A DNA stretch of 64,000 nucleotides, from NCBI GenBank assembly GCA_014239435.1, contig JAAZYX010000020.1, positions 124,001 to 188,000 on the forward strand. Direction: 5' to 3'. This document shows positions 37,187 to 56,996 of this stretch, one piece after another. Source of the DNA: Fidelibacterota bacterium. GTDB taxonomy: Bacteria; Fidelibacterota; Marinisomatia; Marinisomatales; TCS55. The first letter of the stretch is position 1. Each line of letters starts with the position of its first letter. The translations under genes and the position numbers were made by a program. Under the pieces are notes generated by a model. That model made no database searches, was not told the origin of the DNA, and saw only the letters and a program-made list of their open reading frames with translations.

Positions 37187-37196
37187 TTCCTATCCT

Positions 37197-38741
37197 CTAC
37201 TTTTTCTTTTTCTTCTTTTTTTTCTTTTTACCGTCATCGTCACCGTCTGCGGATTCTTCTGCCTGAGGTGTTTCTGGTTCCGGCGGAGCCGGTGCTTCGG
37301 TAACAATCCAATCCTGCACAATCTTTGTTGCCGTGGAAGGCTGACCAACGCTCATGGAAACAACTGCCTGCTTCATATCATTGATTTCACTCTGAATAAC
37401 ACTCGGATCCTCAATGGAACTCGGCACAATTGTTTGCTGAGGCGCTGGAGTCGCCGTTTGTTTTGATTCACCATTTACTGGGCTATCTTTTTTTTTACGT
37501 GGGCGGGGAGGGTACATCCACGGTGGAGGAGGCGGAAACGCCTGCTGCTTATTCTTATTCCCCATGAGTACCATTACCAAAACTACCACAAGAACAATTA
37601 CAAGTGCTCCAAGAATAGACATGAAAACCACCATCATTGTAGAACTCCCGCCGGAGCGCCGGTCCAAATCCGATTGTACCGATTCCAGCATAGCCATCTT
37701 TTCGGCTATTTGCGCATCCAACTGAATTTTTTCGCCTTCTTTAAGATCCATTTGCGCCTGTAATTCTGAATCCGGCGCTGCAGAAATCAAATCCCTCAAT
37801 CCTTGGATTTCATCGTTTAAAGACTGAAGCTTCATTGAATCATCCTGAAGAATGTCTGTTTTTTCCTCCTCATAGGCCCGAGCGCGGGCAGCCATTTCAA
37901 GCTCCGACAGCTTCGATTGGAAATAAAGCCTGTCTTCTTCTCTGCGCTGAGCTTCGTTTTCTTTATAACGGTCTAGTTCAGACTTCCACGTTTCCTCATC
38001 TTCGGCATCATCCGCGGTTTGCTCTTCGAGGGATTCCAGTTTTTCCGCAATATTTTTTAACAGGATATGTTCAGCCGTTTTTTCATCTCTGCGCTCCTTA
38101 AAAGATGCGGTCATAATACTGAGCACATCCCCGCGCGCGCGGTTAAAACGGGATGCTACCATCACAACTTGTCGGATATTTTCAATTAGCTCAGGCGAGG
38201 CGCCTTCCTGTAGAATAATGGAAATATCCATTGCTTTAACACTTGCCACAGATGGGCGGATTTCTTTATGTGTTCTCGAATGGCGTTGTTTATCTTCAGA
38301 TTGTTGCTCAAACGGTTCGTATAATTCCTCTTCAACTTCAATGTCCGAAACAACTGCCGAAGGTTCCGGCTCTACTTCAAAATCAAACCCGGGGATTGGC
38401 AGACCCACTCCGGATACAGTCTGAGAGGAAGATTCCGCCTCAGATTCAATATCTTCAGAAAGGTTGTTAATTCTGTTGCGTGCTGGAGAAGATGATTCTT
38501 CTCCAGTCATGACAGTATACTGTTCCTCAACTGATCTACTCAATTCCAAATCTACGCTGACATCAACTACATACTTTTTATTATCAATTACTTTTGATAA
38601 AGCATCTGTAATTCTTGCGCGCAGATCATTTTCAACCATCAGTTTTTGAGCCAGATAACCCGACCCCTCTTGGGCGCCGAGGATTCCCAAGCAGAGGGCA
38701 GTCACCCACAAGATTGGATGATTCTTGAACCTCTTCATCAT
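37197..38741 (-). CDS. reduced FliF-like MS-ring protein
   Basis: The 514-residue protein has a signal peptide or anchor (about 5-23) and then a split domain resembling the third ring-building motif of FliF. Its first half is ITDALSKVIDNKKYVVDVSV and VDLELS (44-68). Its second half is AMDISIILQEG, then ASPELIENIRQVVMVASRF and RARGDVLSI (170-209). An acidic, Ser-rich insert lies between (80-165). A long coiled coil (215-365), a membrane helix (369-393) and a proline-rich cytoplasmic tail follow. The tail contains QPSTATKIVQDWI (467-479), like the FliG-binding motif at the FliF C terminus, and ends in ten lysines. The first two FliF ring motifs are absent. Position next to fliG supports the assignment. 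Confidence 0.65.
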   Translation of the reverse strand: MMKRFKNHPILWVTALCLGILGAQEGSGYLAQKLMVENDLRARITDALSKVIDNKKYVVDVSVDLELSRSVEEQYTVMTGEESSSPARNRINNLSEDIESEAESSSQTVSGVGLPIPGFDFEVEPEPSAVVSDIEVEEELYEPFEQQSEDKQRHSRTHKEIRPSVASVKAMDISIILQEGASPELIENIRQVVMVASRFNRARGDVLSIMTASFKERRDEKTAEHILLKNIAEKLESLEEQTADDAEDEETWKSELDRYKENEAQRREEDRLYFQSKLSELEMAARARAYEEEKTDILQDDSMKLQSLNDEIQGLRDLISAAPDSELQAQMDLKEGEKIQLDAQIAEKMAMLESVQSDLDRRSGGSSTMMVVFMSILGALVIVLVVVLVMVLMGNKNKQQAFPPPPPWMYPPRPRKKKDSPVNGESKQTATPAPQQTIVPSSIEDPSVIQSEINDMKQAVVSMSVGQPSTATKIVQDWIVTEAPAPPEPETPQAEESADGDDDGKKKKKKKKKK

Positions 38742-38771
38742 AATAAACTCCTTCTTAATTCCATGATAATT

Positions 38772-39563
38772 TTATCCTGCGCCTGCCTGCTCGATAAATT
38801 TACTCGAGTGGTGCGCCGGTTTCAAAAATGTAATTTCTACTCGTCTGTTTCGTGCCTTTTTCTCCGGAGTGGCATTATAAGCCCCCACTGTTTGGGTGTT
38901 TAATGCCATCATGGGATCTTTATCGCGCGGTACCCAATGCGCATACCCCGTTGCAATGAGTCGCGTTGGATCCACACCAAGAATAATGGCTTCCCGCACC
39001 ACAGCTGATGCCCGAGATGAGGCTAGTTCCCAATTACTTGGAAATCTGGTGTGAAATTTTTCAGGGAGAAGATCGCTATCTGTATGCCCGGCAACTTCGA
39101 TTTGAAATATAGAATTTTGAATTTGTGGTACTATATGATCTTTTAGCAGGTTTTTTAAATCATCCTTTAAATCAGCGCTTCCGGATCCAAAACTGAAGTC
39201 TCCGCTAATCTCCAATGTTACACCCTTGGGTCCTGTAGTGATCTCCACAGGCGGACTGCCTTCTGATTCTTCTTTTAAATCTTCGATCATCTCTTCCAAA
39301 TTATCTTTTACGTCGGCCAAGTTTGATGCTGCATTGTCCTTTTTTATTTTAGTTCCGAGCGACTTTCCTGTTGAGTTTGCCATTTCCATTAGTTTTACAG
39401 GATCGATGGTAGAGATTGCTGCCAGCAATACAAAGAAAGCGAACAACAAAGTCATCATATCCGCAAATGTTCCAAACCATCCCGGTAATCCTTCATCAAC
39501 TAAAGTTTTTCCCTTTTTAATTCCTTTTTTGAATTCCTTTTTTTCTTTTGATGTTTTAGGCAT
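38772..39563 (-). CDS. motB: MotB-like stator protein with OmpA peptidoglycan-binding domain
   Basis: The 263-residue protein has a very basic cytoplasmic start, one membrane helix with GTFADMMTLLFAFFVLLAAI, and a linker followed by a C-terminal OmpA/MotB domain (about 150-258; IEVAGHTDSD, ELASSRASAVV, KARNRRVEITF). Asp35 in the helix matches the proton- or sodium-carrying aspartate of MotB. It should anchor the stator to peptidoglycan. Five bases separate it from motA upstream and 30 from the FliF-like gene downstream. ExbD/TolR is excluded by the large peptidoglycan-binding domain. Confidence 0.9.
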   Translation of the reverse strand: MPKTSKEKKEFKKGIKKGKTLVDEGLPGWFGTFADMMTLLFAFFVLLAAISTIDPVKLMEMANSTGKSLGTKIKKDNAASNLADVKDNLEEMIEDLKEESEGSPPVEITTGPKGVTLEISGDFSFGSGSADLKDDLKNLLKDHIVPQIQNSIFQIEVAGHTDSDLLPEKFHTRFPSNWELASSRASAVVREAIILGVDPTRLIATGYAHWVPRDKDPMMALNTQTVGAYNATPEKKARNRRVEITFLKPAHHSSKFIEQAGAG

Positions 39564-39568
39564 TTAAC

Positions 39569-40351
39569 CTACTCGGGAGCTTTCCATTCCTTTGGCGGAA
39601 TAAATGAATTCAGTTTTTCTCGCACAATTAATGGATGCTTTTTTTGGTGAATGAGCCTCGATGCCTCTACAAGCATTGCTTGAAGAGTACTGGTAAAGCT
39701 GGTTCGTGTATCTAGTTTTTCACTCATTGGTAAAAAGAATAAATTCGCAAATACTGCCCCATAAAAAGTGGTAATCAACGCGGCGGACATCCCCGGGCCC
39801 AAAGAGTCTGCGCCACCCTCTCCTCCAAAGCCTGATAACATAATTACCAACCCGATTAAAGTTCCGATCATTCCCCAGGCGGGAGCCATTGTCCCCATGG
39901 ATTTAAACAAACCTGCCTGAGTTTTTTCGCGAACTTCTCTGTATTCAATACGTGTCTCTAAAATTTCTGTCAATTCATCCAATGAATAACCATCTACAAC
40001 CATTTGAACGCCGTCTCTGAAAAACGGGTTTCTAATTCCTTCTACAGCTTTCTCGAGGTCTGCTACGCCTTTCCTTCCTACATCTGCGGCTTCTACTGCA
40101 TCATCAACAACATCGCCTAATTTTAACTTACCGCCTTTAAATACCGCGCCCATTGCTGCGCCCAACTTCATTACATCAGATAGGGGGAATGCAACCGAAA
40201 CAGAAGCAACCATTCCTCCAAAGACAATCGCAAAACTAGAGGGTGAAATAAACCCTGCCATGCTGGCATTAGCAGCGGCGGCGGCCATGAATATCCCTCC
40301 GAAAATGGAAGCCAATCCAATAATAATACCTACTATTGTTGCAATATCCAT
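39569..40351 (-). CDS. motA: MotA/PomA-like stator protein
   Basis: The 260-residue protein has four membrane segments (about 5-25, 38-55, 152-172 and 188-208) and a cytoplasmic loop between the second and third. That loop holds VGRKGVADLEKAVE, with Arg93 and Glu100 near where MotA/PomA carry the charged residues that engage FliG. GTMAPAWGMIGTLIGLVIML and ALITTFYGAVFANLFFLPMSEKL are MotA family blocks. Its length is closer to PomA/LafT than to E. coli MotA. It forms the ion channel with MotB and lies between the outer-membrane barrel gene (6-base gap) and motB. Confidence 0.92.
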   Translation of the reverse strand: MDIATIVGIIIGLASIFGGIFMAAAAANASMAGFISPSSFAIVFGGMVASVSVAFPLSDVMKLGAAMGAVFKGGKLKLGDVVDDAVEAADVGRKGVADLEKAVEGIRNPFFRDGVQMVVDGYSLDELTEILETRIEYREVREKTQAGLFKSMGTMAPAWGMIGTLIGLVIMLSGFGGEGGADSLGPGMSAALITTFYGAVFANLFFLPMSEKLDTRTSFTSTLQAMLVEASRLIHQKKHPLIVREKLNSFIPPKEWKAPE

Positions 40352-40357
40352 AAAGTG

Positions 40358-41722
40358 TTACTCCTCTAAAAAACTGGTGGACTTCAAACGGTTTTCATGA
40401 AGCGCCTTTAATACATTCCTTACATCATCATATTCAGGATCAAGGCGCAATGCCAAATTCCAATTAATAGTCGCTCTCTGTATATCTCCCAGTTTGTAAT
40501 AGATAGAACCTCTCCGAGCATAGGCCAACGCAAGATCTGGCCGGAGATCTAAAGCCATGTCAACTTCCTGGAGCGCTTCCCTGTAATCGCCTGCATAAAA
40601 ATATCTTAGAGAACGTGATAAATGGCGCATGGCTTCATTCATATGCTGCTCATCAACGTTTTTTGTGAGCTTAATCGACGATAAAGAATCTTCAAGAAAC
40701 TGGGATTTTTGTTCCATCGCAGCCAATCGAATCATCAGATTCCGCATTTCATTATTCATCATACTCATCGAATCTCGAAGCGAGTGTACGGTAAAATCGG
40801 CTGCCATGAGTGTAGAGTCAAATTGAACACCATATTCTCCCGTTCCCGGAAGTGTGGACGGATAGATGGGCGATGGGCCGTCAATTGGCGCTGCTCTTGC
40901 GGCACCTCGAGGAACGGACATGTCCAGGCCAAGCGTCCATCCGGGGTGCCCCTTCCAATACCGCTTGTTCCAGTCTGGTAATTTTTCAATGTGGGTGAAC
41001 CCTAGGTTCAGGCGATAATCCGAGGTAAGGGGGATGCGGAGTCCCACATTGATGCCCGTCCCGTCGAATTCACCCACAAGATCTATTCCTCCCCAGTTTT
41101 TCATAAAGGGAGTATTTAAAATAAAACCCGCAAACACGCCGGCGCCGGTTCCGGCTGTTTGGGATGTATCAAGGGCGGAAAGTGTATCCTGCGAAGAAAA
41201 TCCGCCGGTTCCAAACCCTATAAAAGTATTCATGGCATATGTTCCAAGCTGTTTTTCACTGCTTACAACACCAAAAAAAGAAAGCTGGTCCGGGTCGAGC
41301 GCCAAGCCGCCCTGTTCTTGATTTTCAAAAACTACATCATGCATTCCAATAGATAGGGACACGTGATTATATGTATAAACCCGCTGTTGGAAATGAAAGC
41401 CAAACTCTACGGGAGGCGTATAGGTGGACACATCTAGATTGGCAATGGATGTCGTGTCGCCACCTTGGGCCGATGAAAACCCGAGAATAAAGTTTTTCCC
41501 GAGGCCCATATCAAAATACACGCCTTTTGATGTATTGAGATTCCCAAAGTTATACACCTCTGACCCAAACCCAACGCGGAATAAATACGGCAGCTGACCG
41601 GATCTGCTGGTCGGGATTTTCATCATCACACCAGGACGTGTATAGGCAACACGCGTTGCGCTAAAGGCAGATGCGCCTAGGGCAACCAAAAGGGATATAC
41701 TTATAATCCGCAAATTTTTCAT
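40358..41722 (-). CDS. outer-membrane barrel-like protein with C-terminal TPR domain
   Basis: The 454-residue protein has a signal peptide (about 1-21, ASAFSA) and about 260 residues of Gly/aromatic alternating strands. These include FRVGFGSEVYNFGN, VYFDMGLGKNFILGFSSA and NVGLRIPLTSDYRLNLGFTH, which look like an outer-membrane beta-barrel. A short helical region (about 305-350) leads to a TPR domain (about 365-445; YFYAGDYREALQEVDMALDL, ARRGSIYYKLGDIQRAT). The TPR tail would face the periplasm or the surface and bind partners. Between the CpoB-like gene (4-base overlap) and motA (6-base gap), it is a strong candidate for the outer-membrane part of the motor. Confidence 0.65.
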   Translation of the reverse strand: MKNLRIISISLLVALGASAFSATRVAYTRPGVMMKIPTSRSGQLPYLFRVGFGSEVYNFGNLNTSKGVYFDMGLGKNFILGFSSAQGGDTTSIANLDVSTYTPPVEFGFHFQQRVYTYNHVSLSIGMHDVVFENQEQGGLALDPDQLSFFGVVSSEKQLGTYAMNTFIGFGTGGFSSQDTLSALDTSQTAGTGAGVFAGFILNTPFMKNWGGIDLVGEFDGTGINVGLRIPLTSDYRLNLGFTHIEKLPDWNKRYWKGHPGWTLGLDMSVPRGAARAAPIDGPSPIYPSTLPGTGEYGVQFDSTLMAADFTVHSLRDSMSMMNNEMRNLMIRLAAMEQKSQFLEDSLSSIKLTKNVDEQHMNEAMRHLSRSLRYFYAGDYREALQEVDMALDLRPDLALAYARRGSIYYKLGDIQRATINWNLALRLDPEYDDVRNVLKALHENRLKSTSFLEE

Positions 41723-42573
41723 TTAATTGCTTCGGCCTTTGCCAATTCGAGCCCGGCTAGTTTTGCATATTCGCTGTTTGGGTGCCACCTTACAATAGCA
41801 GAAAAAGCATTAAGTGCTTCGGATTCACGGCCGAGCTTACGATACACCAAGCCTTTTTGAATTAATGCATCTGCTTCTCGGCTTAAATCAGGACGGTGCA
41901 ATAAATCCTCAAGAATTTCTAAGGCTTTTTGATATTCCCCCTTTTGTAAATAGGAATCTGCCATCCAATACAAAATATTTTCTGCTGTGCGCGGCTGGGC
42001 CAATTCCAGCTTTAAGGATGAAAAATGTTTTAATGCGGCATCATAGTCCTCCCGCTGATATGCGAAAACACCTGACATGTAAATAGATGTGCTAAACCCT
42101 GCCTTGGGAGAGGCTTGAGCAGTGTAGATTGGCGCAGATTCGGTTAGCGGAATCTGGGGAGTCCTTGATTCCATGTAAGATTCTTTTAAATCTGCGATTA
42201 GGGTTTTGAGTTCGCTGTTTTCCTGCTTTAGAAATGCAATGTCGCTCTTGATAGAGTTATCCAATGAGGATACTTTTTCCTGTATCCTGTCCAGCGTTTC
42301 CATCATTTCTTTGGACGATGCCATATATACGGAGCCGCTTTGAATTTTTTTTACCCTGAATTTCACCTCATCAGATGTAGAGGCAACGACGCGGGAATAG
42401 GTTTCACTACCGTCCGACGGCTCAATTACGATTCCAAGGTCTAGAAAAAAGATGTCCGCGATGGATTCGCGGCTTACGTCTTGGGCTGTACTTAATGACA
42501 GTATTGTTAGTAACGACAGGGCGCTAAGCATGTGAGTCCTCAGATATAACAAAATCCCGACATTTTGATTCAT
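41719..42573 (-). CDS. periplasmic coiled-coil/TPR protein, CpoB/YbgF-like
   Basis: The 284-residue protein has a signal peptide (the inner ATG at 42531 gives MLSALSLLTILSLSTAQ). A coiled-coil segment (about 87-135) and at least three TPR-like helix pairs follow (GVFAYQREDYDAALKHFSSL, ENILYWMADSYLQKGEYQKA, LVYRKLGRESEALNAF). This layout is that of the Tol-Pal protein CpoB/YbgF. It overlaps the upstream stop (TAATG) and the downstream start (ATGA), so it belongs to the motor operon, where it could link inner- and outer-membrane parts. No tol or pal gene lies nearby. Confidence 0.7.
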   Translation of the reverse strand: MNQNVGILLYLRTHMLSALSLLTILSLSTAQDVSRESIADIFFLDLGIVIEPSDGSETYSRVVASTSDEVKFRVKKIQSGSVYMASSKEMMETLDRIQEKVSSLDNSIKSDIAFLKQENSELKTLIADLKESYMESRTPQIPLTESAPIYTAQASPKAGFSTSIYMSGVFAYQREDYDAALKHFSSLKLELAQPRTAENILYWMADSYLQKGEYQKALEILEDLLHRPDLSREADALIQKGLVYRKLGRESEALNAFSAIVRWHPNSEYAKLAGLELAKAEAIK

Positions 42574-43766
42574 TACTCGTATTCCTCCCAGTCGATTACA
42601 TAGGAATATCCTATGAACGATCCAAAAGAGTGTGGGACATAAAGTTCAAACGCGCCCGACGCGCCGGGCAAAAGCGTTGCATCCGTTGTAATGCCGGATT
42701 CAAATGTGTGATAGGCACCGCGAACAAAGGTTGTAAGTGTTTTTGTTTCGCCGCTCCAGTTTTTTCTAAATACAAAATCAACTTTAACAAAATCTGAGCG
42801 CCGCCCTCCAATATTTTTTACTTCGCCGGTAAAGATATAATTACCCTGCTTATCTTTTTTCTCACTGATATTCCCAACCAAAACACAATTGGCTGAATAT
42901 TGTTTTGCAGCATCTCTGCTTAAGCTGCCGGATGTATACTGAGGTTGGGCCAATTTTGGCATAGGCGGTGGGGAATAGCTGTCACGAATTTGCTCCGGCA
43001 CATACTCCTGAGATTCTTCCGTAACTACATTTTCAATAATGCGCACCACATTTTTGCGCTGAATAATCAGGTAGCCTACAAGTGTCTCAACTTTTAATGT
43101 TTCTTCGTCCTGATATACAATTTTCCCAAATACGGTGCTGCCGTTTTTAAGAATAATTTCTTTTGAATAAATGGCGAGAGGATTAACCCACATTTTGCTC
43201 AGCGCTTTTAGATCTTCCATCTCTGTATTTAAATGCTTGATTTCAGCATTGAGTTTTTTAACCTCGAAGCTTAATTCATTGATCACATAATTTTCATCAG
43301 AGCCGGGGACTTCGACTGGGGATGCTTCACCCGTGGAGCTTGCTTCTGCTGATTCCGTTTCCGCATTGGAAGAATCATCTGATTTTTCTTCTTTTGCCGT
43401 AGCCGCTCCGCCGCCGGATAAGGTTACTTCGTCCAAATCTACATCATCGTCTACAACGGATACCGGTATGTTTGCGGATCCCTGTTCACCTGCGTCAATT
43501 TGAAGGGTGTATTCGCCCGGGAGCACATCTTCAAAGTCAAAATTCCCGCCGCCGCGGCCAAACCGTTTTTTGGAAGTTTCTGTTCGCTGAGATTCCGACC
43601 CGTCTTCTTTTAATAATAAAACCGTTGTTTCGGTGACGCGTTCTTCGTCGACACCCACAACGGTTCCGGAAATCTCATATTCGTCCTTAGCCTGAAGGCC
43701 CGGCACAAATACCGCAAGAAGCAAGGGGTATAGGATTACCCCCTTCAAAATGTTGTTTTTACTCAT
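42573..43766 (-). CDS. secreted protein with carboxypeptidase-regulatory-like and FxLYD-like domains
   Basis: The 397-residue first gene of the motor operon has a signal peptide (about 1-26, GLQAK). A carboxypeptidase-regulatory-like beta-sandwich (about 30-115; YEISGTVVGVDEE, PGEYTLQIDAG) is followed by a Ser/Glu-rich linker. Next come a short coiled coil (about 165-190), a small all-beta segment (ILKNGSTVFGKIVYQDEETL to NVVRIIENV) and a C-terminal FxLYD-like domain (EVKNIGGRRSDFVKVDFVF). The parts suggest a periplasmic scaffold. I do not recognise the full architecture. It lies about 50 bases downstream of a good promoter. Confidence 0.6.
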   Translation of the reverse strand: MSKNNILKGVILYPLLLAVFVPGLQAKDEYEISGTVVGVDEERVTETTVLLLKEDGSESQRTETSKKRFGRGGGNFDFEDVLPGEYTLQIDAGEQGSANIPVSVVDDDVDLDEVTLSGGGAATAKEEKSDDSSNAETESAEASSTGEASPVEVPGSDENYVINELSFEVKKLNAEIKHLNTEMEDLKALSKMWVNPLAIYSKEIILKNGSTVFGKIVYQDEETLKVETLVGYLIIQRKNVVRIIENVVTEESQEYVPEQIRDSYSPPPMPKLAQPQYTSGSLSRDAAKQYSANCVLVGNISEKKDKQGNYIFTGEVKNIGGRRSDFVKVDFVFRKNWSGETKTLTTFVRGAYHTFESGITTDATLLPGASGAFELYVPHSFGSFIGYSYVIDWEEYE

Positions 43767-47253: not shown

Positions 47254-48324
47254 TTAAACTTCTTTACCCAGCATGTGCAGCTGCCAAAGATCCTGACTGC
47301 TCTGATGTAGAAACGGACCCAAGGCCATCATGCCTGTTTTCCCAATATTGTCTTCTAAAAAATGAAGCTCATTGAATTTGTCTTTTAAATCCGCATCTGG
47401 CTCTACATCAACACCCGCCTCTCTCATCATTAGCACACCTTTGGCGCGCATAGACAATTCAAGGTGGACACGGAGGAGGCAAATCATATCAAATACCACC
47501 TCTCCCGGGAAGCGGTCTTTTATAGACTGTAAATATTCTCCGACTTTCGTGTCAACAACTTTCCCCTGATTTACCATGTCCAATAGTTCCTGATCTGAAT
47601 CAAATCCAACGCCAAGCCAGTTTTGCAGAAATTTTTCAGATCGCTTGAAAATGATCATTAAAATCACGGGAACTGTTATCACATTCAAAAGTGTCAATAT
47701 TAAGGGATTGAAAAAGAAATGATTATAGAAAGAGTGAAAAACGGCTGCCGTAAGAAAGCCGGGGATGAATCCACCCCATTCGCCCCAAACTTTGCGGTCT
47801 GTCATTGTCTTCGCAATGATGGCGAATAAAGTCATGGTTCCGCCGTGCATCACCGCAGTTCCAAAGCCGCGGATAATAAATACCGTCAAATTTGTATCAG
47901 TCGCAAGCACATAGACATAATACAAATTTTCAATGATCGCAAAACCAGCGCCCAACCCAAACCCATAAATAGCCGCATCAATATTGAACCCGATCTTATT
48001 CGTGCGAATGAGGTAAACTAAAATGAATCCTTTAAAGAATTCCTCAATAATGGGTGCGCCATATCTGGAATAATATTTCCAAACCATATCCTCGGCATCA
48101 TACAGCGCCATATCCTTGGCGGCTGCCACCTTTTCTGCGATAAGCCCGACAAGCGGATCGTTCACAAAATACGACACCACAGCTGCAAGAGAGCCAATCG
48201 CAATCGCAATGACAACGCTTTTTATATCCATCAGTTTGTAGCTGTCCATAAACATAAATACAAGCAGCATAATCACCGCCGGAAGAAGGCTGATGATTAT
48301 TTTTATAATCAAGTCAATTGTCAT
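47254..48324 (-). CDS. PrsW-family intramembrane metalloprotease
   Basis: The 356-residue protein has about eight membrane helices and the PrsW/Abi-type active-site motifs: PIIEEFFKGFILVYLI (Glu94, Glu95), GFAIIENLYYVY, MHGGTMTLFAIIAK and FHSFYNHFFFNP. These place two glutamates and histidines in the membrane as metal and catalytic residues. PrsW proteases cleave membrane substrates such as anti-sigma factors. A soluble C-terminal region of about 125 residues, predicted helical, is added to the usual core. It follows the 1,025-residue protease gene by one base, so the two are likely co-expressed. Confidence 0.85.
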   Translation of the reverse strand: MTIDLIIKIIISLLPAVIMLLVFMFMDSYKLMDIKSVVIAIAIGSLAAVVSYFVNDPLVGLIAEKVAAAKDMALYDAEDMVWKYYSRYGAPIIEEFFKGFILVYLIRTNKIGFNIDAAIYGFGLGAGFAIIENLYYVYVLATDTNLTVFIIRGFGTAVMHGGTMTLFAIIAKTMTDRKVWGEWGGFIPGFLTAAVFHSFYNHFFFNPLILTLLNVITVPVILMIIFKRSEKFLQNWLGVGFDSDQELLDMVNQGKVVDTKVGEYLQSIKDRFPGEVVFDMICLLRVHLELSMRAKGVLMMREAGVDVEPDADLKDKFNELHFLEDNIGKTGMMALGPFLHQSSQDLWQLHMLGKEV

Positions 48325-48325
48325 A

Positions 48326-51300
48326 TTAGTCTAATATTTGAAGGGAAATCATTGTCTCCGGAGCATAGCTGTGTGTTGTGCCGTCTTTCAGGCTGCTCTG
48401 CGCAGTTGCGTATCCAATAGACAAAGTGGATCGCATATACGAAAACAATACTAACCGAATATCAAGCTGAACGCCGAAGTTTGTGGCTTGGGTAATATCC
48501 GATCCATAGGTGGCTGCATCCGTTCCGATAAGGTTTGATCCTAACATCCCGCCTTTTAGCACAGTCGAAAATAGAGATAGGCGTGCCCAGTTTAGGTAAA
48601 GGAAGGGTGTACCAACGCGTCGGAATCTAAATGCCGGTAGCACCATTTCTCCCATGACCCTCACAAAGTTATCACCGCCGATGCTGGTGATACCCGCACC
48701 CGGGAATGAATAATACTGCCGATATCGCTTGATTCCCTGATAATCAATCCAGTTGTTTCCAAATCCGCCAAAAAAGTAATACCCAAAAAATTCATTATCA
48801 TCTCCAGCCGACCCAACTTCGCCCATCATTGCTTTTGATTTACCAACAGATGTGCGAATCCAAAATGGAAGATGGTCTATGAGCGGCAAAAGAGTGCCAA
48901 AAGATGCATTAAGGGTTCCTTTGGTGTAAAGTTTTGGCGTATCACCAGAGTGAGGCAAATACGACCCGGATAAGGAAAGGGAAGCAATTCTGCCTTTTTC
49001 AGAATCTATGGATCCTAGGGTCCGCCGTGCTTTGTAATGGCTGAATGAGAGGCTTCCTGTAAAGAATTTAGAATACGCGGCGGGCTGATCTTGATAGTCG
49101 GGCAATTCTTCAAATCCGCCATAAACCGCAACGCTTGTGGACATTTTTAAAGGCAGATGGTTATCAACCGACTTCGAAAAACTTGTGCGGAAGAAGGACC
49201 CTTTCCGGCTACTGATGGTTGGGCCAAAAAGATCATAAAAGTCCGAAGCATCTTTTCCACCGCTGAATGTCCACGACCCAGCTAGAAGGCCGGTCAGCAC
49301 ATTCAATTTTAATGTTCCTGTCGCGTGAATTTTTTGATCATCCGGAATCGAATCTTGGGGAGAATACGTTACGGTAAGGTCGCCTTTATTTAATCCCAGT
49401 GTAGACATAAAATTCATTCTTACGCCATACGCGGGATATTTAGGATCCTGATAAGCCTGCACAACGGGGTAGATCGATGAAAGCCCAATAGTAGACATCG
49501 GATTATACCCGCCTTCTTTAATCACAATTTTATCAAGATCAAGATTGGTGGGCGCCTTGGTTGCCCATTGTTGAACAATGGGGTGATTATCATATATTTC
49601 CCAGCCCAAAAAATTAACCGCGCTTACATCTTCTACCTCTTGATTGGGAATCATCACAGGGCGAAAGCCGTCGCTTGTATACCGCAGCACAATTAAAGAA
49701 TCATCGGAAACTGGGATTGGATTGAAGAACCCGGTTTCTGCGTTACTCAGAGCAACAACTGTATCTTCCACCACATCATAGCGAAAAATGTTTGATACGC
49801 CCGAATAATAGGATGAGCCGTATTGATATCGCCCCTCATTCGAAAACACAAAACTTTCCGGTGCGCTGCTGTCAAAATCAAATATCGGTTTTCCAGTGAA
49901 GTCCCCTGACATCGCGCTTTCCATCGGGATATGCATAAGTTTATGAATGCCGTTCATATCTACTTTTACAATAGATAGGGTGCTTCCGTCCGGTGAAATA
50001 TCCATTGTATGCGCGTCGTATTCATCAAAAGACCCTCCATAACCAAACGTTTTTATTGAGCTGTAATCATCGTACGGTGCTTCCATGCGGATGACCGTAG
50101 AATATCCGTCTGCATTCCGAATTCCCCAGAGCGATTTGTCTGAGCGATTAAAAGCTAAATGCCCGGTCCGCAAATCTTCTTTCAGTTTTTTCGATTCTTT
50201 GGTGTACACATTCACCACCCATAGATCGCGCCAGTGCCCATTATCCATAGTGTAATACAAATCGCCTGTATCCGGATCGAAAGCAGCTGACATCACAAAA
50301 AAGATCGCCGCTCCATGGATATCGGCTACTTTTTCCATTTCCCCTGTTGCTATGTCAATAGCGGCTATATGTGAAACTTCCGCAGGATAAAATACGCCAA
50401 GATAAATTTTACCGTTTTTCTCATCATAGAAGCCTTTTGAAACTGACCCGAGCGGCATATCAGACACGGGTCTGAATGGTGTCGTGGGATATTGCCTGAC
50501 GAGCTCAAGATTCTTCGTTTGGAAATCACGTTCCCACTGAATCCAATCAGACCATGCTTTGTCAATGCTCACTCCAAATACTTTTTTGAACTGAGATGTA
50601 AAGTAGGCTTTGCTGCCATCTTTTCTCGAAACCCATTCCACAAATTTTTCAGGACCGTAGGTATTGGCCGCATAGCTGATAAACCGAGTGCCGTATAAAT
50701 ATGAGTTTACACCTATTTGAAAATCGGTCGTTTTCCCTTCGGATTCAAGCCCCACGATATCATAAATAACAGCCTCGTCTCTTACTCGGGTCCTAAATAC
50801 CATTTCATCGTATGCGCCGAAAACGCGCCCTTTCGTATTCGCCATCCAGGATTCCATAAATACGGCAGATCCTTCATGATACCATCGCGGTGCGTACCTT
50901 CTTGGATTGGTAAGGTAGCTGTACATAATGGAAATAGGATCGTCAATGGAGGTGGAAACTTTCCCTCGAAAAAGCCCACGCCAAAACCGGTCAACATTGT
51001 TCGGCATATCTGTGGTAACAATGTGTGTCAACTCGTGGTGCATCAGCCAGTTCATGCGTTCGCTGGCCGGCATGGTTTCATATACATAATTAAAGGGGCC
51101 GATCCCAATATTGACATTGTTCGTTGGAAGTGCGTCTGCGCCGCCATGACCGAAGTCACCAAAATCCTGCATCAGTATTGTAATATTTTCAGTAGGCGTA
51201 TAATCAAACATATTCCTGTGAAAATTGTAGGAATTGGTAAAGGTGCTTACAAGCTGCGGCATCAGATATTTATGAAGTGGGCTTGTATAGATAATTTGAA

Positions 51301-51403
51301 CGTCTTCTGTCTCTAAAGACTTCAGCTGTGCATTGCCCGGCGCAATAAATATGGCTGTTGCCAGAATCACTGCGGCAATGAATTGAAATGCTGTTTTAGG
51401 CAT
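48326..51403 (-). CDS. secreted HExxH metalloprotease with propeller and barrel regions
   Basis: This is a 1,025-residue protein. The ATG at 51403 gives a clean signal peptide (ending PGNAQ) and has GGGAG upstream, whereas a GTG eight codons earlier does not improve it. A peptidase MA-like domain follows, with the zinc motif HELTH (residues 123-127) and the downstream RWYHEGSAVFMESW that may give the third ligand. The middle (about 320-600) has repeated ITIADIATGE-like and S-DGSTLSIV-like strands of a TolB/WD40-type propeller. The last 350 residues look like outer-membrane beta strands, ending FSYMRSTLSIGYATAQ and ISLQILD. It probably sits in the outer membrane with the protease on one side. 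Confidence 0.75.
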   Translation of the reverse strand: MPKTAFQFIAAVILATAIFIAPGNAQLKSLETEDVQIIYTSPLHKYLMPQLVSTFTNSYNFHRNMFDYTPTENITILMQDFGDFGHGGADALPTNNVNIGIGPFNYVYETMPASERMNWLMHHELTHIVTTDMPNNVDRFWRGLFRGKVSTSIDDPISIMYSYLTNPRRYAPRWYHEGSAVFMESWMANTKGRVFGAYDEMVFRTRVRDEAVIYDIVGLESEGKTTDFQIGVNSYLYGTRFISYAANTYGPEKFVEWVSRKDGSKAYFTSQFKKVFGVSIDKAWSDWIQWERDFQTKNLELVRQYPTTPFRPVSDMPLGSVSKGFYDEKNGKIYLGVFYPAEVSHIAAIDIATGEMEKVADIHGAAIFFVMSAAFDPDTGDLYYTMDNGHWRDLWVVNVYTKESKKLKEDLRTGHLAFNRSDKSLWGIRNADGYSTVIRMEAPYDDYSSIKTFGYGGSFDEYDAHTMDISPDGSTLSIVKVDMNGIHKLMHIPMESAMSGDFTGKPIFDFDSSAPESFVFSNEGRYQYGSSYYSGVSNIFRYDVVEDTVVALSNAETGFFNPIPVSDDSLIVLRYTSDGFRPVMIPNQEVEDVSAVNFLGWEIYDNHPIVQQWATKAPTNLDLDKIVIKEGGYNPMSTIGLSSIYPVVQAYQDPKYPAYGVRMNFMSTLGLNKGDLTVTYSPQDSIPDDQKIHATGTLKLNVLTGLLAGSWTFSGGKDASDFYDLFGPTISSRKGSFFRTSFSKSVDNHLPLKMSTSVAVYGGFEELPDYQDQPAAYSKFFTGSLSFSHYKARRTLGSIDSEKGRIASLSLSGSYLPHSGDTPKLYTKGTLNASFGTLLPLIDHLPFWIRTSVGKSKAMMGEVGSAGDDNEFFGYYFFGGFGNNWIDYQGIKRYRQYYSFPGAGITSIGGDNFVRVMGEMVLPAFRFRRVGTPFLYLNWARLSLFSTVLKGGMLGSNLIGTDAATYGSDITQATNFGVQLDIRLVLFSYMRSTLSIGYATAQSSLKDGTTHSYAPETMISLQILD

Positions 51404-51467
51404 GGTTTGGGTCTCCCAATAATTCACGGAATTTCGACAGACACCTGTTCCAAAGTCAAACTGTATA

Positions 51468-51501
51468 AAAAAAGAAGGAGATGGTTTCCCATCTCCTTCT
51501 T
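51468..51501 (-). terminator. intrinsic terminator after the shorter nonapeptide-repeat gene
   Basis: A 13-bp perfect stem (AAGAAGGAGATGG and CCATCTCCTTCTT) with a TTTC loop is followed on the minus strand by a run of seven T. It closes the two-gene nonapeptide-repeat unit upstream of the protease gene. Confidence 0.85.
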
Positions 51502-51541: not shown

Positions 51542-52411
51542 TTATTTTATTGAAAGGCTAAAGCGCGATTGAAATTCAGGACTTGACAGTAAGCTGTGAA
51601 ATTCCCCCGCCGAAAGCATATTTTTGAAAGCACCCAGAGACAGCATGGATTTAAAATTTGGGCTCATTAGCACAGCTGAAAATTCTGCGCTTCTCATGAG
51701 GGACCGAAACTCGGCCATGTTGTACAAGGCAGCAAATCCCGGATTACCTAATAAACTTTCAAATTCTCTGATGGTAGATAGAGCAGCTGCTCCGTCTGTA
51801 TCGCCGGAAAGACCTCCGCCTTGAGAAATGTCTGATCCTCCGCCACCGCCAGAGAGACCCGACCCTCCGGCTGCAATCATCGTAATGGTTGTTGCAACAT
51901 CAGAACTGCCGTCAGATATTTTAATCGACAGGCTTCCGTCTGCCTCTTTAATAATCTGATCTTCAGATATTTGTCCGAGTTGATCTGCTAAATTTTCAGC
52001 CGATATGCTCGTTTCTTCGCTCATACTGATAAGGCCTCCTTCAAGGGCCTTAAACTCCGGGCTCGAAATAAGCGCGGCAAAAGCAGGATCTGCCATTAGA
52101 TTTTGAAATCTTGCATCCGCAACCATGTTTTTAAAATCTGCATTTGCTATTAAACTGGCAAATTCTCCGCTTGTTACAAGGTCACTAAATTTTTTATTCT
52201 GCATAAGGCGTGAAAGCCGGGCATCGTTTTCACCCAAGGCAACATCGCCTTCTTTAAACTGCTGTTTTTCTATTGATTGCCGTTTGCCGATGGTTCCGGA
52301 TACATCGTCGCCTCCCCACTGATCTCTCGTGAAAATCAAAGCGAGAAATACAACAACGAGACCACCGGTTAATATTAGCGGAGTATTTTTATTGGATGAA
52401 TTTTCAGCCAT
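51542..52411 (-). CDS. membrane-anchored nonapeptide-repeat protein, short paralogue
   Basis: This 289-residue protein is not assignable to a family I know. A single membrane helix (about 12-28) is followed by GTIGKR and an acidic segment. Then comes a repeat in which Phe recurs exactly every nine residues (75, 84, 93, 102, 111, 120), with the pattern F-x-x-[LM]-[LIV]-x-[SN/AD]-x-[ED]. After a Gly/Ser-rich spacer (about 125-210), eight more phased units follow (217 to 280). The end, FQSRFSLSIK, resembles the partner protein. Orientation suggests that the repeats are periplasmic. It lies 67 bases downstream of its paralogue. Confidence 0.8.
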   Translation of the reverse strand: MAENSSNKNTPLILTGGLVVVFLALIFTRDQWGGDDVSGTIGKRQSIEKQQFKEGDVALGENDARLSRLMQNKKFSDLVTSGEFASLIANADFKNMVADARFQNLMADPAFAALISSPEFKALEGGLISMSEETSISAENLADQLGQISEDQIIKEADGSLSIKISDGSSDVATTITMIAAGGSGLSGGGGGSDISQGGGLSGDTDGAAALSTIREFESLLGNPGFAALYNMAEFRSLMRSAEFSAVLMSPNFKSMLSLGAFKNMLSAGEFHSLLSSPEFQSRFSLSIK

Positions 52412-52435
52412 AGTGAATCCTAGCGTTGTGTGATT

Positions 52436-52462
52436 GGGAGAGACGAAAAAATCGCCTCTCCC
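52436..52462. repeat. inverted repeat between the two nonapeptide-repeat genes
   Basis: GGGAGAG and CTCTCCC flank an inner CG/CG pair and an A-rich loop. It lies in the 67-base spacer after the longer gene. There is no T-run beyond the stem, so it may act as a weak terminator or an RNA-stability element that sets the ratio of the two proteins. Confidence 0.5.
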
Positions 52463-52478
52463 GTCATCACAGTTTTAG

Positions 52479-53918
52479 TTATCTGATGTTTAGGTTAAAT
52501 GCGCTGTTGAATTCGGAACTCTGGAGCATGTTTTTAAACTCACCTGCACCTAGAATATTTTTGAATTCTGCGTTTCCGAGCATTGAATTGAACTCAGAAG
52601 AACCAAGCATGGAAGCGAACTCCGCGTTGCCAAGCATGGAAGCGAACTCTGCGTTGCCAAGCATGGATGCGAATTCAGCATTGCCTAACATGGATGCAAA
52701 TGCTGCGGTTCCTGCCATTGCCTGAAAAGCGCCGCCGCTTAGTACAGATCCAAATTTCTTTTTGAATTTTGGAATTTTCTTCGACATTTTATCGTTCCCA
52801 AGCGCCTTGGAAAGCCCCTGTTTTTTGAGGGATGCGGCAAATTCCGCGTTTCCAAGAAGCGACTGAAATTCGGAAGACGCAAGCATCGAACTAAATTCCG
52901 CGTTACCTGCTAATGCCTGAAATTCAGCAGAACCAAGCATGGCGCCAAATTTCTTCTTTGGGAATTTCTTCTTCGCTTCATCGCTCTTCATTGCTTTCGA
53001 AAGTCCGTTTTTCTTAAGAGATGCCGCAAATTCTGCATTGCCAAGCATGGATGCAAATTCTGAGGATCCAAGCATGGCATTAAACTGCGCATTGCCTAAA
53101 ACATTCGCGAATTCCGCGCCGCTGGAAAGTGCTCTAAACTCTGCAGATCCCATCAGTGCGCCGTATTTTTTCTTCGGAAATGCTTTCTTTGCATGGTCGC
53201 TCTTCATTGCTTTCGAAAGACCGTTTGTCTTAAGTGATGCAGCAAATTCAGCATTACCCAAAAGATTGGCAAATTCAGGGGACCCAAGAATTGCATTAAA
53301 CTCGGGGCTTCCTGCCATTGCCTGAAATTCAGCAGAACCAAGCATGGCGCCAAATTTCTTCTTTGGGAATTTCTTCTTCGCTTCATCGCTCTTCATTGCT
53401 TTCGAAAGACCGTTTTTCTTAAGAGATGCCGCAAATTCTGCATTGCCGAGTAGTGCTTTAAATTCAGCAGAGCCAAGCATGGCACCAAATTTTCCTTTGG
53501 AAAACTTTTTCCCTTTTTCGCCTTTCATTTCTCCGCCTTCTGCCATTTTACTGAGCTTGCCCGATTTTAGGGCTGCAGCGAATTCAGCGTTGCCGAGTAA
53601 AGCTTGAAACTCTCCGCTGGAGAGCATATTCATAAACTCTGCATTTTGGGTCATGTTCTGGAATTCTTTGCTGGTGACCAGCTTTTCAAATCCCTTGTCC
53701 TGCATAAGCCGGCTTATACCGGCCCCTTCGCCAAGGCGAGTGTCGCCTTCTTCAAACTGTCCTTTTTCCGCAGCACGGCGTTTTCCAATAGTACCGGAAA
53801 GACCGTCGTCGCCTGGAGGATAGTTCATAACTACCAACGCTATCACCACGGCAACTACGCCGATGCCGATAAGCAACTTGGTATTTTTATTACCACTATC
53901 GTCTAATTTACTTGCCAT
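52479..53918 (-). CDS. membrane-anchored nonapeptide-repeat protein, long paralogue
   Basis: The 479-residue protein has the same head as its short paralogue (membrane helix about 14-32, then SGTIGKR, an acidic segment and SRLMQDKGFEKLVTSKEF). Phe or Tyr then recurs every nine residues almost without exception, from 77 to 470. The repeat, LGNAEFASM in its commonest form, is interrupted five times by a lysine-rich linker (SLKKNGLSKAMKSDEAKKKF-type). Three of these linkers span exactly 27 residues and so keep the nine-residue phase. The end FNSAFNLNIR matches the paralogue. A strong AGGAGG site precedes the ATG. I know no family or function for it. Confidence 0.85.
   Translation of the reverse strand: MASKLDDSGNKNTKLLIGIGVVAVVIALVVMNYPPGDDGLSGTIGKRRAAEKGQFEEGDTRLGEGAGISRLMQDKGFEKLVTSKEFQNMTQNAEFMNMLSSGEFQALLGNAEFAAALKSGKLSKMAEGGEMKGEKGKKFSKGKFGAMLGSAEFKALLGNAEFAASLKKNGLSKAMKSDEAKKKFPKKKFGAMLGSAEFQAMAGSPEFNAILGSPEFANLLGNAEFAASLKTNGLSKAMKSDHAKKAFPKKKYGALMGSAEFRALSSGAEFANVLGNAQFNAMLGSSEFASMLGNAEFAASLKKNGLSKAMKSDEAKKKFPKKKFGAMLGSAEFQALAGNAEFSSMLASSEFQSLLGNAEFAASLKKQGLSKALGNDKMSKKIPKFKKKFGSVLSGGAFQAMAGTAAFASMLGNAEFASMLGNAEFASMLGNAEFASMLGSSEFNSMLGNAEFKNILGAGEFKNMLQSSEFNSAFNLNIR
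52604..52690 (-). repeat. tandem 27-bp repeats encoding nine-residue units
   Basis: Near-identical 27-bp units begin at 52604, 52631, 52658 and, more diverged, 52685. Each encodes one LGNAEFASM-type nonapeptide of the long paralogue. The first two full units differ at a single base. Confidence 0.9.
52915..53042 (-). repeat. 128-bp direct repeat, copy A
   Basis: This 128-bp stretch in the long nonapeptide gene matches 53320-53447 at 127 positions, with the one difference at 53004. It encodes one lysine-rich linker and the flanking repeat units. The offset of 405 bp is an exact multiple of 27. Confidence 0.9.
53320..53447 (-). repeat. 128-bp direct repeat, copy B
   Basis: This is the second copy of the 52915-53042 repeat. 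A more diverged relative of the linker part lies around 53157-53235. Near-identity at DNA level points to recent duplication or gene conversion within the gene. Confidence 0.9.
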
Positions 53919-54133: not shown

Positions 54134-54550
54134 ATGAGCGCGCATCAGTCTATCCAAATCCCTAATGACAGAGACCAAATTGACAGCGTCCGAAAATTCT
54201 TCGATCAGTTTGGGGAGGAAAACCAACTTTCCGAAAAAGTAGTACATGATATCCAAATGGCTCTTGACGAGCTTTTGACCAATATTGTGAATTATGGGTA
54301 TGAAGATGACGGTGAGCACATTATTGACGTTCGCTTCGAAGTAGGCGGAAAAAACCTAAAAGTGGAGATTGTGGATGACGCTAAACCGTATAATATGCTG
54401 GAGCGTGAAGATCCCGATACAACTCTTTCTGTAGAGGATAAACCGATTGGGGGCCTTGGGGTATACCTCGTAAAGCAACTCATGTCTCATACGGAATATT
54501 TTACAAAAGGGAATAAAAACCATTTTATTATGATAAAAGGACTAGAATAA
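54134..54550 (+). CDS. RsbW/SpoIIAB-like serine kinase (HATPase_c)
   Basis: The 138-residue GHKL ATP-binding protein has an N box with Glu46 and Asn50 (ALDELLTNIVNYGY), a DDAKPYNML segment at the G1 position and the G2-like GGLGVYLVKQLM. Such proteins are anti-sigma factors or switch kinases that phosphorylate a STAS partner. The partner gene lies 12 bases downstream, followed by a PP2C phosphatase, a complete partner-switching set. No sigma factor is in the window, so the controlled target is unknown. About 215 bases of divergent spacer precede it. Confidence 0.88.
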   Translation: MSAHQSIQIPNDRDQIDSVRKFFDQFGEENQLSEKVVHDIQMALDELLTNIVNYGYEDDGEHIIDVRFEVGGKNLKVEIVDDAKPYNMLEREDPDTTLSVEDKPIGGLGVYLVKQLMSHTEYFTKGNKNHFIMIKGLE

Positions 54551-54562
54551 GGAAACCATTTC

Positions 54563-54895
54563 ATGGAAATACGAGACAAAAAAGAGGGCGAAGTCGCCAT
54601 CATTGAACCGGTAGGAAGAATTGATACCAATACATCCGGTGAGTTTGAAGATAAAATTGTGGAAGTAATGGATCGGGGAGAAACCAGGTTTGTCGTTGAT
54701 TTAAAAGAAATCGACTATATTTCCAGTGCCGGGCTCAGGGTATTCCTGATGGCGGCTAAGAAGCTTAAATCTTCGGGCGGATCGTTTGTCCTATGTTCGA
54801 TGAGTGATCATATTAAGGAAGTATTCGACATTTCCGGGTTTACCCCTATTTTTACGATTACACCGGACCAAGCTTCCGGTGCGGAAGCTGCTTAG
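54563..54895 (+). CDS. STAS-domain anti-sigma factor antagonist (RsbV/SpoIIAA-like)
   Basis: The 110-residue protein is a single STAS domain. VVDLKEIDYISSAGLRVFLM contains the phosphorylation loop with Ser54 and Ser55, one of which should be the switch serine. When unphosphorylated it would bind the RsbW-like kinase encoded 12 bases upstream and release that kinase's target. The phosphatase gene 13 bases downstream would reactivate it. Confidence 0.9.
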   Translation: MEIRDKKEGEVAIIEPVGRIDTNTSGEFEDKIVEVMDRGETRFVVDLKEIDYISSAGLRVFLMAAKKLKSSGGSFVLCSMSDHIKEVFDISGFTPIFTITPDQASGAEAA

Positions 54896-54908
54896 GAAAT
54901 ATTCGAAC

Positions 54909-56174
54909 ATGAGTGAAAACCGCCAAGTCAGAAATCTAAATGCGCTCCTAGACGTCGCCAAAGCGCTTGGCGGTGAAATGCAGCTCGATAACCTCCTCCC
55001 TATTATCCTGCAAAAAACAACCGAAGTCATGGATGCAGACAGAAGCAGCCTTTTTATTTATGATGATACAACCAATGAGTTGTGGAGTAAAGTTGCCGAA
55101 GGAATGGGGGAAAAGGAAATTCGATTCCCGGTCGGAATCGGAATCGCAGGCGATGTGGCTAAAACACTGAAAACGGCGAATATTCCCGATGCATACGAAG
55201 ACGATCGCTTCAATCCCGCATTTGATAAAAAATCCAACTATCGTACCAAATCCGTGTTATGTATGCCGATGATTAATAACGATGGTTCGCTGGTTGGCGT
55301 TGTGCAGGTACTCAATAAAATGGACGGTGGCGCGTTTGACGATCAAGATGAAAACTTGCTTGAAGCATTATCCGTTCAAGCAGCGGTGGCCATCCAAAGA
55401 GCACAGCTTTTGGAAGCATTCGTTGAAAAACAGCGGATCCAGGAGTCCTTAAAGCTTGCGGCGGATATCCAAATGGGGATGCTTCCCAAAAATTTCCCTG
55501 CTTTCCCGGAAAGAGATGATTTTGATTTGTTTGCAAGTATCATTCCAGCAAAAGAAGTCGGAGGCGATTTCTACGACTTTTTCCTTATAGATGAAGATCA
55601 TCTGTGTTTTGTGATTGGCGATGTCTCTGGAAAAGGGGTACCCGCAGCGCTGTTTATGGCGGTAACCAAAACGCATGTGGCTGCAAGCACAATCCCCGGA
55701 GTGGAGCCGTCCGATATTTTATTCCGTGCAAATAATGAATTGAGTAAGGATAATGATCAGGGCATGTTTTGCACCATATTCTATGGAATCTTGAACACCA
55801 AAACAGGCGAGGTTCATTATTCGAATGGAGGGCACAATCCTCCCTACATCGTCCGCGAAGACGGTACCAATGAACAAGTGGAGGGCACCATGGGCATTGC
55901 GCTCGGGGTGATGGATGAAATGGATTTCGGCGTCAACGCTATTACTCTGAAAAAGGGGGATTCCATGTATTTATATACAGATGGAGTAAACGAGGCGATG
56001 GATATTGGCGGGAATGAATACTCCTACGAAAGACTAGAAGAATTCCTAACATCAACCGCCGGACAAAAAACAACGGATATTGTTGCGGGAAGCTTGTCAG
56101 ATATTGAGGTATTTGTCGGAAACGCGGAGCAGTCCGACGATATTACCGTCCTGATGGTGAAATATACGGGCTGA
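54909..56174 (+). CDS. GAF-PP2C (SpoIIE/RsbU-type) phosphatase
   Basis: The 421-residue protein has an N-terminal GAF domain (about 15-165; DADRSSLFIYDD, LVGVVQVLNKMDGGAFDDQD) and a C-terminal SpoIIE-type PP2C domain (about 200-420). The metal-binding stretches are PAKEVGGDFYDFF, VIGDVSGKGVPAALFMA and SDDITVLMV. It should dephosphorylate the STAS protein when its GAF domain senses a signal. I chose the ATG at 54909, because the 35-residue upstream extension lies inside the STAS gene. Its terminator overlaps the end of the convergent transglycosylase gene. Confidence 0.9.
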   Translation: MSENRQVRNLNALLDVAKALGGEMQLDNLLPIILQKTTEVMDADRSSLFIYDDTTNELWSKVAEGMGEKEIRFPVGIGIAGDVAKTLKTANIPDAYEDDRFNPAFDKKSNYRTKSVLCMPMINNDGSLVGVVQVLNKMDGGAFDDQDENLLEALSVQAAVAIQRAQLLEAFVEKQRIQESLKLAADIQMGMLPKNFPAFPERDDFDLFASIIPAKEVGGDFYDFFLIDEDHLCFVIGDVSGKGVPAALFMAVTKTHVAASTIPGVEPSDILFRANNELSKDNDQGMFCTIFYGILNTKTGEVHYSNGGHNPPYIVREDGTNEQVEGTMGIALGVMDEMDFGVNAITLKKGDSMYLYTDGVNEAMDIGGNEYSYERLEEFLTSTAGQKTTDIVAGSLSDIEVFVGNAEQSDDITVLMVKYTG

Positions 56175-56996
56175 TTAGTCCCCGGGGTTCGCCGGGGGTT
56201 TTTCAATGTTTTCCTTCAGTTCCGTTCTCAGGTCCAATACCGCCCTTACGTAATTCTCTGAATGGTTGTAGGCCCAAACCGACTTCCAAATCGGTTTACC
56301 CTTCGAAAAGTCGGTGCCGGCATATCCATTCTTTTTTAGATAATTCGCAATGCTTCCGAGAACGTCCGGCCATTCCAAATGATGCCGAACGCCATCACCG
56401 TCAAAGTCCACAGAGAACCGATTAAAACTTGAGGGAATAAATTGCCCGAATCCGAACGCGCCTGCATAGGATCCTGAAATATCCTGCGGCCCCATTCCGT
56501 TTTCGTAACAGTGTTTCAGAAAATCCGACAATTCATTTGCCGCCCATTTTTCTTTTCTGGGCAAGGTGTGGATTATGGAATAAAGCGCATTAAATACCGA
56601 ATACTGCGCATGATGAACTCCATAATTGCTTTCCACTCCGGCAATACTCAAAATAAGAAACGGATCCACATAAAAGCTGTCTGAAACAGCATGAATAATA
56701 CGTTTATTTTCGGTATAAAATATGGTTCCCTTTTGGATTCTCGACTCTGTAACAAACAGCTTCTTGTATGCCGGGTAGTCTTTTTTCTCCCATGGATTAT
56801 TAAATTTATCAGCTATATCGTTGTGGATTTTTATGCGAGGATTTGTAAATGCGCTGTCTAAAAAAGACCTCGGAACCGAGGAGTTGGTGAAGGATTCGAT
56901 TATAAGGTTAAATGCTTTATCTTCGTTAATGTGATGCGAAAAGCCGGGCCCAAAAAAAATGGCGGCAGTAAAGATGTATAAAATTCTGTAATTCAT
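56175..56996 (-). CDS. lytic murein transglycosylase, MltB-like
   Basis: The 273-residue protein has a signal peptide (about 1-20) and a lysozyme-like domain with catalytic Glu122 in SIAGVESNYG. GAFGFGQFIPSSF and SVDFDGDGVRHH follow, typical of the MltB group (SLT_2). It cleaves peptidoglycan between MurNAc and GlcNAc, forming anhydro-MurNAc ends. There is no clear lipobox, so it may be soluble in the periplasm. Its last eight or so codons are formed by the plus-strand terminator hairpin of the phosphatase gene. Confidence 0.88.
   Translation of the reverse strand: MNYRILYIFTAAIFFGPGFSHHINEDKAFNLIIESFTNSSVPRSFLDSAFTNPRIKIHNDIADKFNNPWEKKDYPAYKKLFVTESRIQKGTIFYTENKRIIHAVSDSFYVDPFLILSIAGVESNYGVHHAQYSVFNALYSIIHTLPRKEKWAANELSDFLKHCYENGMGPQDISGSYAGAFGFGQFIPSSFNRFSVDFDGDGVRHHLEWPDVLGSIANYLKKNGYAGTDFSKGKPIWKSVWAYNHSENYVRAVLDLRTELKENIEKPPANPGD
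56180..56203 (+). terminator. intrinsic terminator of the partner-switching genes, inside a coding tail
   Basis: CCCCGG and CCGGGG surround a six-base loop and are followed by GGTTTTT on the plus strand. The hairpin lies within the minus-strand transglycosylase gene and encodes its final PPANPGD. Confidence 0.75.

Follow-up and report, generated by a model that had tools for sequence, protein, structure and literature searches.

Membrane-anchored nonapeptide-repeat proteins encoded between putative protease and partner-switching genes in Fidelibacterota

The STI1/HOP-DP domains (PF17830) of ubiquilin, Sgt2 and Sti1 are eukaryotic, cytosolic modules of 5-6 short amphipathic helices with tight turns and Met-rich hydrophobic positions, and steps of about nine residues separate some of their helix starts. 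Single-helix units are also found in the N-terminal domain of MgtE (PF03448), while the nonapeptide repeats of RTX proteins combine a nine-residue unit with the motif GGxGxD. Among regulatory systems, the Bacillus anti-sigma factor RsiW is a cleavage substrate of PrsW, and RsbU, RsbV and RsbW act in partner switching. Alpha-solenoids, such as TPR, HEAT, ankyrin and Sel1 proteins, consist of tandem helical repeats with units of about 30-44 residues and two helices each (PMC11514114).

Here, we describe a pair of membrane-anchored proteins with nine-residue repeats, encoded in a 64,000-nt window (the whole stretch of DNA that was analysed) from a Fidelibacterota bacterium (TCS55; assembly GCA_014239435.1, contig JAAZYX010000020.1, positions 124,001-188,000), together with the genes surrounding them (Table 1). 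Like STI1/HOP-DP, these proteins and their relatives may combine short amphipathic helices and tight turns, drawn in low-confidence models, with hydrophobic positions that are Met-rich in some members; unlike it, they carry up to 44 units, are membrane-anchored and predicted to be periplasmic, and score below the cut-off of that family. The likeness to MgtE concerns a relative with a 12-residue array (G192), which resembles the single-helix units of PF03448 and has no MgtE channel attached; this model gives no match on the two nine-residue proteins encoded in the window. With RTX repeats the proteins share the unit length, and two units would give an 18-residue coil, but they have no GGxGxD, a helix-forming composition and a membrane-anchored N-terminus. 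They resemble alpha-solenoids in being predicted tandem helical repeats, and differ from them in having one short helix per nine residues. Homologues of the parts of both PrsW/RsiW proteolysis and RsbU-RsbV-RsbW partner switching are encoded next door; in contrast to the PrsW/RsiW system, the repeat protein has no anti-sigma domain, and a predicted outer-membrane metallopeptidase and the repeat protein itself are added. We know of no description of a set combining PrsW, a partner switch, an outer-membrane metallopeptidase and a repeat protein.

Table 1. Features of the repeat locus; positions refer to the window unless another locus is named.
Feature	Position	Strand	Basis
Putative PrsW-type intramembrane protease	47254..48324	-	PF13367, 1.3e-17
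Putative gluzincin-type metallopeptidase (HELTH ... HEG) with propeller and predicted outer-membrane barrel	48326..51427	-	Catalytic residues
Hairpin resembling an intrinsic terminator, located between the peptidase gene and the repeat genes	51472..51501	-	
Short nonapeptide-repeat protein (289 aa), a paralogue of the long protein	51542..52411	-	ORF; dN/dS
Short protein, second array (residues 217-289; eight in-phase Phe)	51545..51763	-	
Short protein, first array (residues 75-128; six in-phase Phe)	52028..52189	-	
Stable hairpin in the gap separating the repeat genes; lacks a T tract	52412..52478	-	z = -6.7
Long nonapeptide-repeat protein, 479 aa	52479..53918	-	ORF; Phe phase; dN/dS
Long protein, nine-residue array (residues 77-470), including five Lys-rich degenerate stretches	52509..53690	-	
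Long protein, GTIGKR head motif (residues 42-47)	53778..53795	-	Nearly invariant in family alignment
Long protein, N-terminal membrane anchor (residues 13-31)	53826..53882	-	Hydropathy and flanking charges; helix 11-32 in AlphaFold2 model
RsbW-like HATPase_c_2 anti-sigma-type kinase	54134..54550	+	PF13581
STAS anti-sigma-factor antagonist	54563..54895	+	PF01740
GAF-SpoIIE phosphatase (RsbU-like)	54804..56174	+	PF07228, PF01590; listed ORF start, true start probably further in
12-residue arrays, family f20, sub-period [DN][RK]x[AS][LM][FA]	L084 5103-6434; L085 5231-6478		

Both open reading frames lie where the original prediction had placed them, on the minus strand, and the phase it described is present: Phe recurs every nine residues in the short protein (six times at residues 75-120 and eight times at 217-280) and nearly throughout residues 77-470 of the long one. 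The short protein has 12 Phe pairs at distance 9 among 16 Phe in total, as compared with a maximum of 6 in 1000 shuffles, and the long protein has 27 among 40 Phe (shuffled maximum 11). In a profile of 230 units, position 1 is F in 94%, position 4 is M or L, position 5 is L, position 7 is N, S or D in 92% and position 9 is E or D in 75%, giving the consensus F-A-[NA]-M-L-A-[NS]-x-E. The Lys-rich linkers of the long protein, which are themselves degenerate units (LSKAMKSDE), had been described as phase-keeping stretches of 27 residues; this holds for three of the five, the Phe-to-Phe spans being 31, 27, 27, 27 and 29, so that the first and the last depart from it, and the second 27-residue span ends at a Tyr replacing Phe. 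The membrane anchor and GTIGKR are common to both proteins, as predicted, and GTIGKR is nearly invariant across the alignment of the whole family. The closing FxSxFxLxI[RK], also described as shared, is common to the window pair and occurs in the long protein of the congener G002, but it is not a feature of the family, being absent from G001, from the short protein of G002 and from the other families. Additionally, spurious long open reading frames in other frames or on the other strand overlie arrays at L045 5204-6424 and L046 5457-6812; with a unit of 27 bases, an array free of stop codons in one frame remains so in further frames and on the opposite strand.

Relatives were searched for systematically in 245 Marinimicrobia genomes, and a family profile found the repeat gene in 13 of them; a contig scan over all phyla with a single protein, which reaches only close relatives, returned one congener. 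G001 and G002 are congeners of the window genome, the former with the long form only in the stretch read. Nearly pure arrays (e.g. ANREFANML) are found in G043, G089 and G090, from another family of the same order, and in G196, from another class, with 35-44 units by the strict pattern in the three arrays among them that are complete, and the Met content is 10-12% in G089, G090 and G196. In family f29 (G209, G211, G220, G221), the nine-residue arrays are short and degenerate and the middle of the protein is not repetitive, while family f20 (G192, G193) has the same anchor and GTIG-KR head with a period of 12 residues and a sub-period of 6; the head and the gene surroundings are thus kept while the unit changes.

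Downstream, the repeat gene belongs to a module with two putative proteases. In the metallopeptidase, the HExxH and HEG residues are invariant in all nine sequences aligned, of which five have weak PD40 (propeller) matches and one a Porin_4 match. The PrsW homologue matches PF13367 with the family's EExxK, FxxxE (here FxxxEN) and His conserved. Across the 245 genomes of the phylum, the metallopeptidase is present in 14 and the PrsW homologue in 15, and the union of all three genes covers 16 genomes spanning several families and more than one class; just four of these (G043, G088, G134, G210) are without one or two of the three genes, all at contig ends, and in G134 the PrsW frame is also broken. 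Hypergeometric P values for co-occurrence are 1.6e-17 for repeat and peptidase and 6.8e-22 for peptidase and PrsW, both too small because shared ancestry is ignored. Among the peptidases, the one encoded in the window comes nearer to its counterpart in G196, from another class (52-53%), than to those of G192 and G193 in its own class (44-46%), a hint that the module may have moved between lineages.

On the other side, all three parts of a partner-switching module, i.e. SpoIIE phosphatase, STAS protein and HATPase_c_2 kinase, are found at the neighbouring genes. STAS and SpoIIE genes adjoin the repeat gene in every locus readable on that side, with calls by Pfam for the G000, G196, G192 and G211 loci and by plain similarity for the others. 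In most loci these genes are divergent from the repeat gene; in family f29, where SpoIIE and STAS are the only members of the set seen, the repeat gene is immediately preceded by a STAS gene of the same orientation, and this in turn by a phosphatase gene. A full Cache-HAMP-SpoIIE domain set was recognised by Pfam in G211, the one locus checked for it. The partner-switching genes of the window are adjoined by an SLT_2 lytic transglycosylase gene (56175-56996, minus strand), with a matching open reading frame at the same place in G001. Farther away, homologues of FliG (N, M and C domains), FliF-C-like, MotB and MotA proteins are encoded in a row (36254-40351, minus strand; Pfam), followed by TPR and envelope-type proteins (40358-43766), and no other flagellar gene was recognised nearby.

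Long hairpins between the repeat and peptidase genes occur in eight loci (G000, G001, G002, G089, G090, G196, G192, G193), followed by a T tract in most cases, with z-scores of -2.9 to -5.3 for the region; the counterparts of the window hairpin in the seven other loci differ in sequence, and in G089 and G090 the whole gap between the genes is 90 bases. No strong hairpin is present at this place in the four loci of family f29, where the arrays are short and degenerate. Such a terminator-like hairpin suggests partial termination, with more repeat protein made than protease; in fimbrial operons, the major subunit is likewise made in excess over its machinery. The hairpin between the paired repeat genes, which is also present in G002 (z = -5.6; further coordinates L001 763-827), possibly serves mRNA stability or differential expression. 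Codon usage gave no sign of high expression of the repeat genes in the window genome, a measure that is uninformative here because ribosomal genes barely differ from the genome background.

The explanation we prefer, which we regard as plausible if short of probable, is that of an anchored periplasmic array of short helices that is controlled by a partner switch, made in excess, engaged in binding or scaffolding, and processed by two proteases. The switch (phosphatase, STAS protein and usually kinase) would probably control the adjoining envelope genes, and their main product would be an inner-membrane-anchored protein with a periplasmic tandem array of short amphipathic helices, one in every nine residues, each having an Asn/Ser cap and Phe, Met and Leu on one face. 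The terminator-like hairpin would pass only part of the transcription on to the protease genes, leaving the repeat protein in excess. The array may act as a multivalent, self-associating scaffold, as a chaperone-like binder of hydrophobic segments that holds unfolded envelope proteins, or as both, and PrsW and the outer-membrane metallopeptidase may trim, release or clear it, a tie that we infer from gene order and co-occurrence.

Searches against known families bear on what such an array might be. That the repeat matches no known family, as originally claimed, agrees with the absence of any Pfam or NCBIfam model at cut-off on either window protein; for the same proteins, PADLOC models gave no match and a PDB sequence search no convincing match. 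The earlier exclusion of two families also stands: GGxGxD of RTX is absent from the unit profile, and the period is 9, with none at 5 as in pentapeptide repeats (A[DN]Lxx), neither family giving a Pfam match on the window proteins. No Pfam model of an alpha-solenoid (TPR, HEAT, ankyrin) matched them, the period being nine residues. Viral and plasmid searches returned no relative of the repeat proteins, and four Pseudomonas plasmid matches at 22-24% identity were taken as low-complexity. Among the relatives, the repeats of G196, G089 and G090 exceed the Pfam cut-off of 25 for Med31 (41, 42.9 and 31.1), which we judged compositional because they fit the same model at several shifted places, and weak matches of repeat stretches to the unrelated spore_II_R, YdhT, sigma-factor and PHROG models were also read as compositional. 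MgtE_N (PF03448) is barely above cut-off on the 12-residue relative G192 (26.5 vs 25.9), which may be due to composition or to a true similarity of single-helix units, and gave no match on the window proteins.

STI1-HOP_DP (PF17830, cut-off 29.1) matched neither window protein in Pfam and was above cut-off in none of eight genomes, the best score being 17.5 bits in G196. In G089 and G196, sub-threshold matches nevertheless coincide with the repeat genes, and they would fit a specific form of our explanation, a membrane-tethered periplasmic chaperone like STI1, ubiquilin and Sgt2, in which hydrophobic segments would be held in grooves of Met-rich short helices, with the metallopeptidase disposing of clients that fail. 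The repeat unit, which we take to resemble the DPEVQxIM-type helices of STI1, favours this form, and STAS/SpoIIE switches often serve stress responses, which would suit it. We nonetheless find it unlikely, given scores below cut-off everywhere, control genomes that are weakly positive too and the lack of a known client; further, we know of no STI1 protein with 40 near-identical units.

For the short-helix array as such, AlphaFold2 models reached a mean pLDDT of 38 for the short protein (three sequences) and 44 for the long one (single sequence), both with a pTM of about 0.2, no defined packing and shallow or no alignments. Both of these low-confidence models draw most units as a 7-residue helix plus a 2-residue turn, with longer or merged helices in linkers and elsewhere; Foldseek found no structural neighbour in the PDB, as expected for a low-confidence model. 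The stacking expected of a solenoid or polymer, which the original prediction derived from the strict phase, is neither borne out nor contradicted by these models. The residues at positions 7 and 9 of the unit fit a helix N-cap pattern, and the composition of the repeats has a higher propensity for helix than for strand. The hydrophobic moment is 0.05-0.09 for a continuous helix and 0.3-0.5 for 7-residue helices at their best register, a figure that picking the best register per unit inflates by itself. Taken together, these features speak for a series of short amphipathic helices rather than a single long one; a continuous amphipathic helix is unlikely, and the array of short helices is moderately supported.

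A beta-solenoid rod could be built instead with coils of 18 residues, each coil comprising a pair of nonapeptides or, in the family with 12- and 6-residue periods, three hexapeptides. The arithmetic (9x2 = 6x3 = 18) and the 6-residue sub-period of the 12-residue arrays are in its favour, as is the periodicity of G089, G090 and G196, which is strongest at 18. We consider it improbable, as the composition favours helix, AlphaFold2 draws helices in most units, albeit at low confidence, no Gly/Asp turn motif is present, and the linkers that keep phase, at 27 residues, do not amount to a whole number of 18-residue coils.

The short-helix array would be periplasmic, as originally proposed: in all 14 heads, flanking charges favour an N-terminus inside and repeats outside, though for some of them the preference is weak. 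This topology also bears on regulated intramembrane proteolysis, in which the repeat protein would act as a sensor that signals inward after cleavage by the metallopeptidase (site 1) and by PrsW. The precedent of PrsW and RsiW and the adjoining partner-switching genes fit such a role, but the excess of repeat protein suggested by the hairpins would be unlike a regulator, and the 8-18 residues that precede the membrane segment in all heads leave no cytoplasmic domain to release. No head has a cytoplasmic anti-sigma domain before this segment, and a classical anti-sigma role is unlikely because so few residues face the cytoplasm; regulated proteolysis as a whole seems quite improbable.

The repeat genes are under purifying selection, and the arrays are old and held at the protein level. 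For the long gene, dN/dS against two congeners is 0.04 (C-terminal part) and 0.13; it is 0.09 for the short gene and lies at 0.03-0.05 in the genes of the peptidase and of PrsW, all rough values given the high dS, and adjacent units in nine-residue arrays have a mean DNA identity of 45-71%. Repetition, variable unit number and spurious open frames could point to a functionless low-complexity product of slippage, which can be dismissed as extremely improbable in view of the low dN/dS, the divergence of neighbouring units in DNA and the conserved head and gene module.

These observations point to a cell-envelope system without earlier study. We further suggest, tentatively and as a possibility only, that this new system consists of a switch-controlled anchored polymer or client-binding array with a new single-short-helix repeat fold, which a dedicated PrsW and an outer-membrane metallopeptidase-barrel would assemble, release or clear, and that the unit can change from 9 to 12 residues without loss of the system. 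If this is true, the repeats would represent a new class of helical tandem repeat, whose single-helix unit of nine residues is much shorter than the usual 30-44, and the locus would provide a whole envelope module, with obvious candidate partners, in a marine phylum of which few members have been cultured. The switch in unit length within one gene family would, moreover, offer a way to find out what physical property of the array selection maintains.
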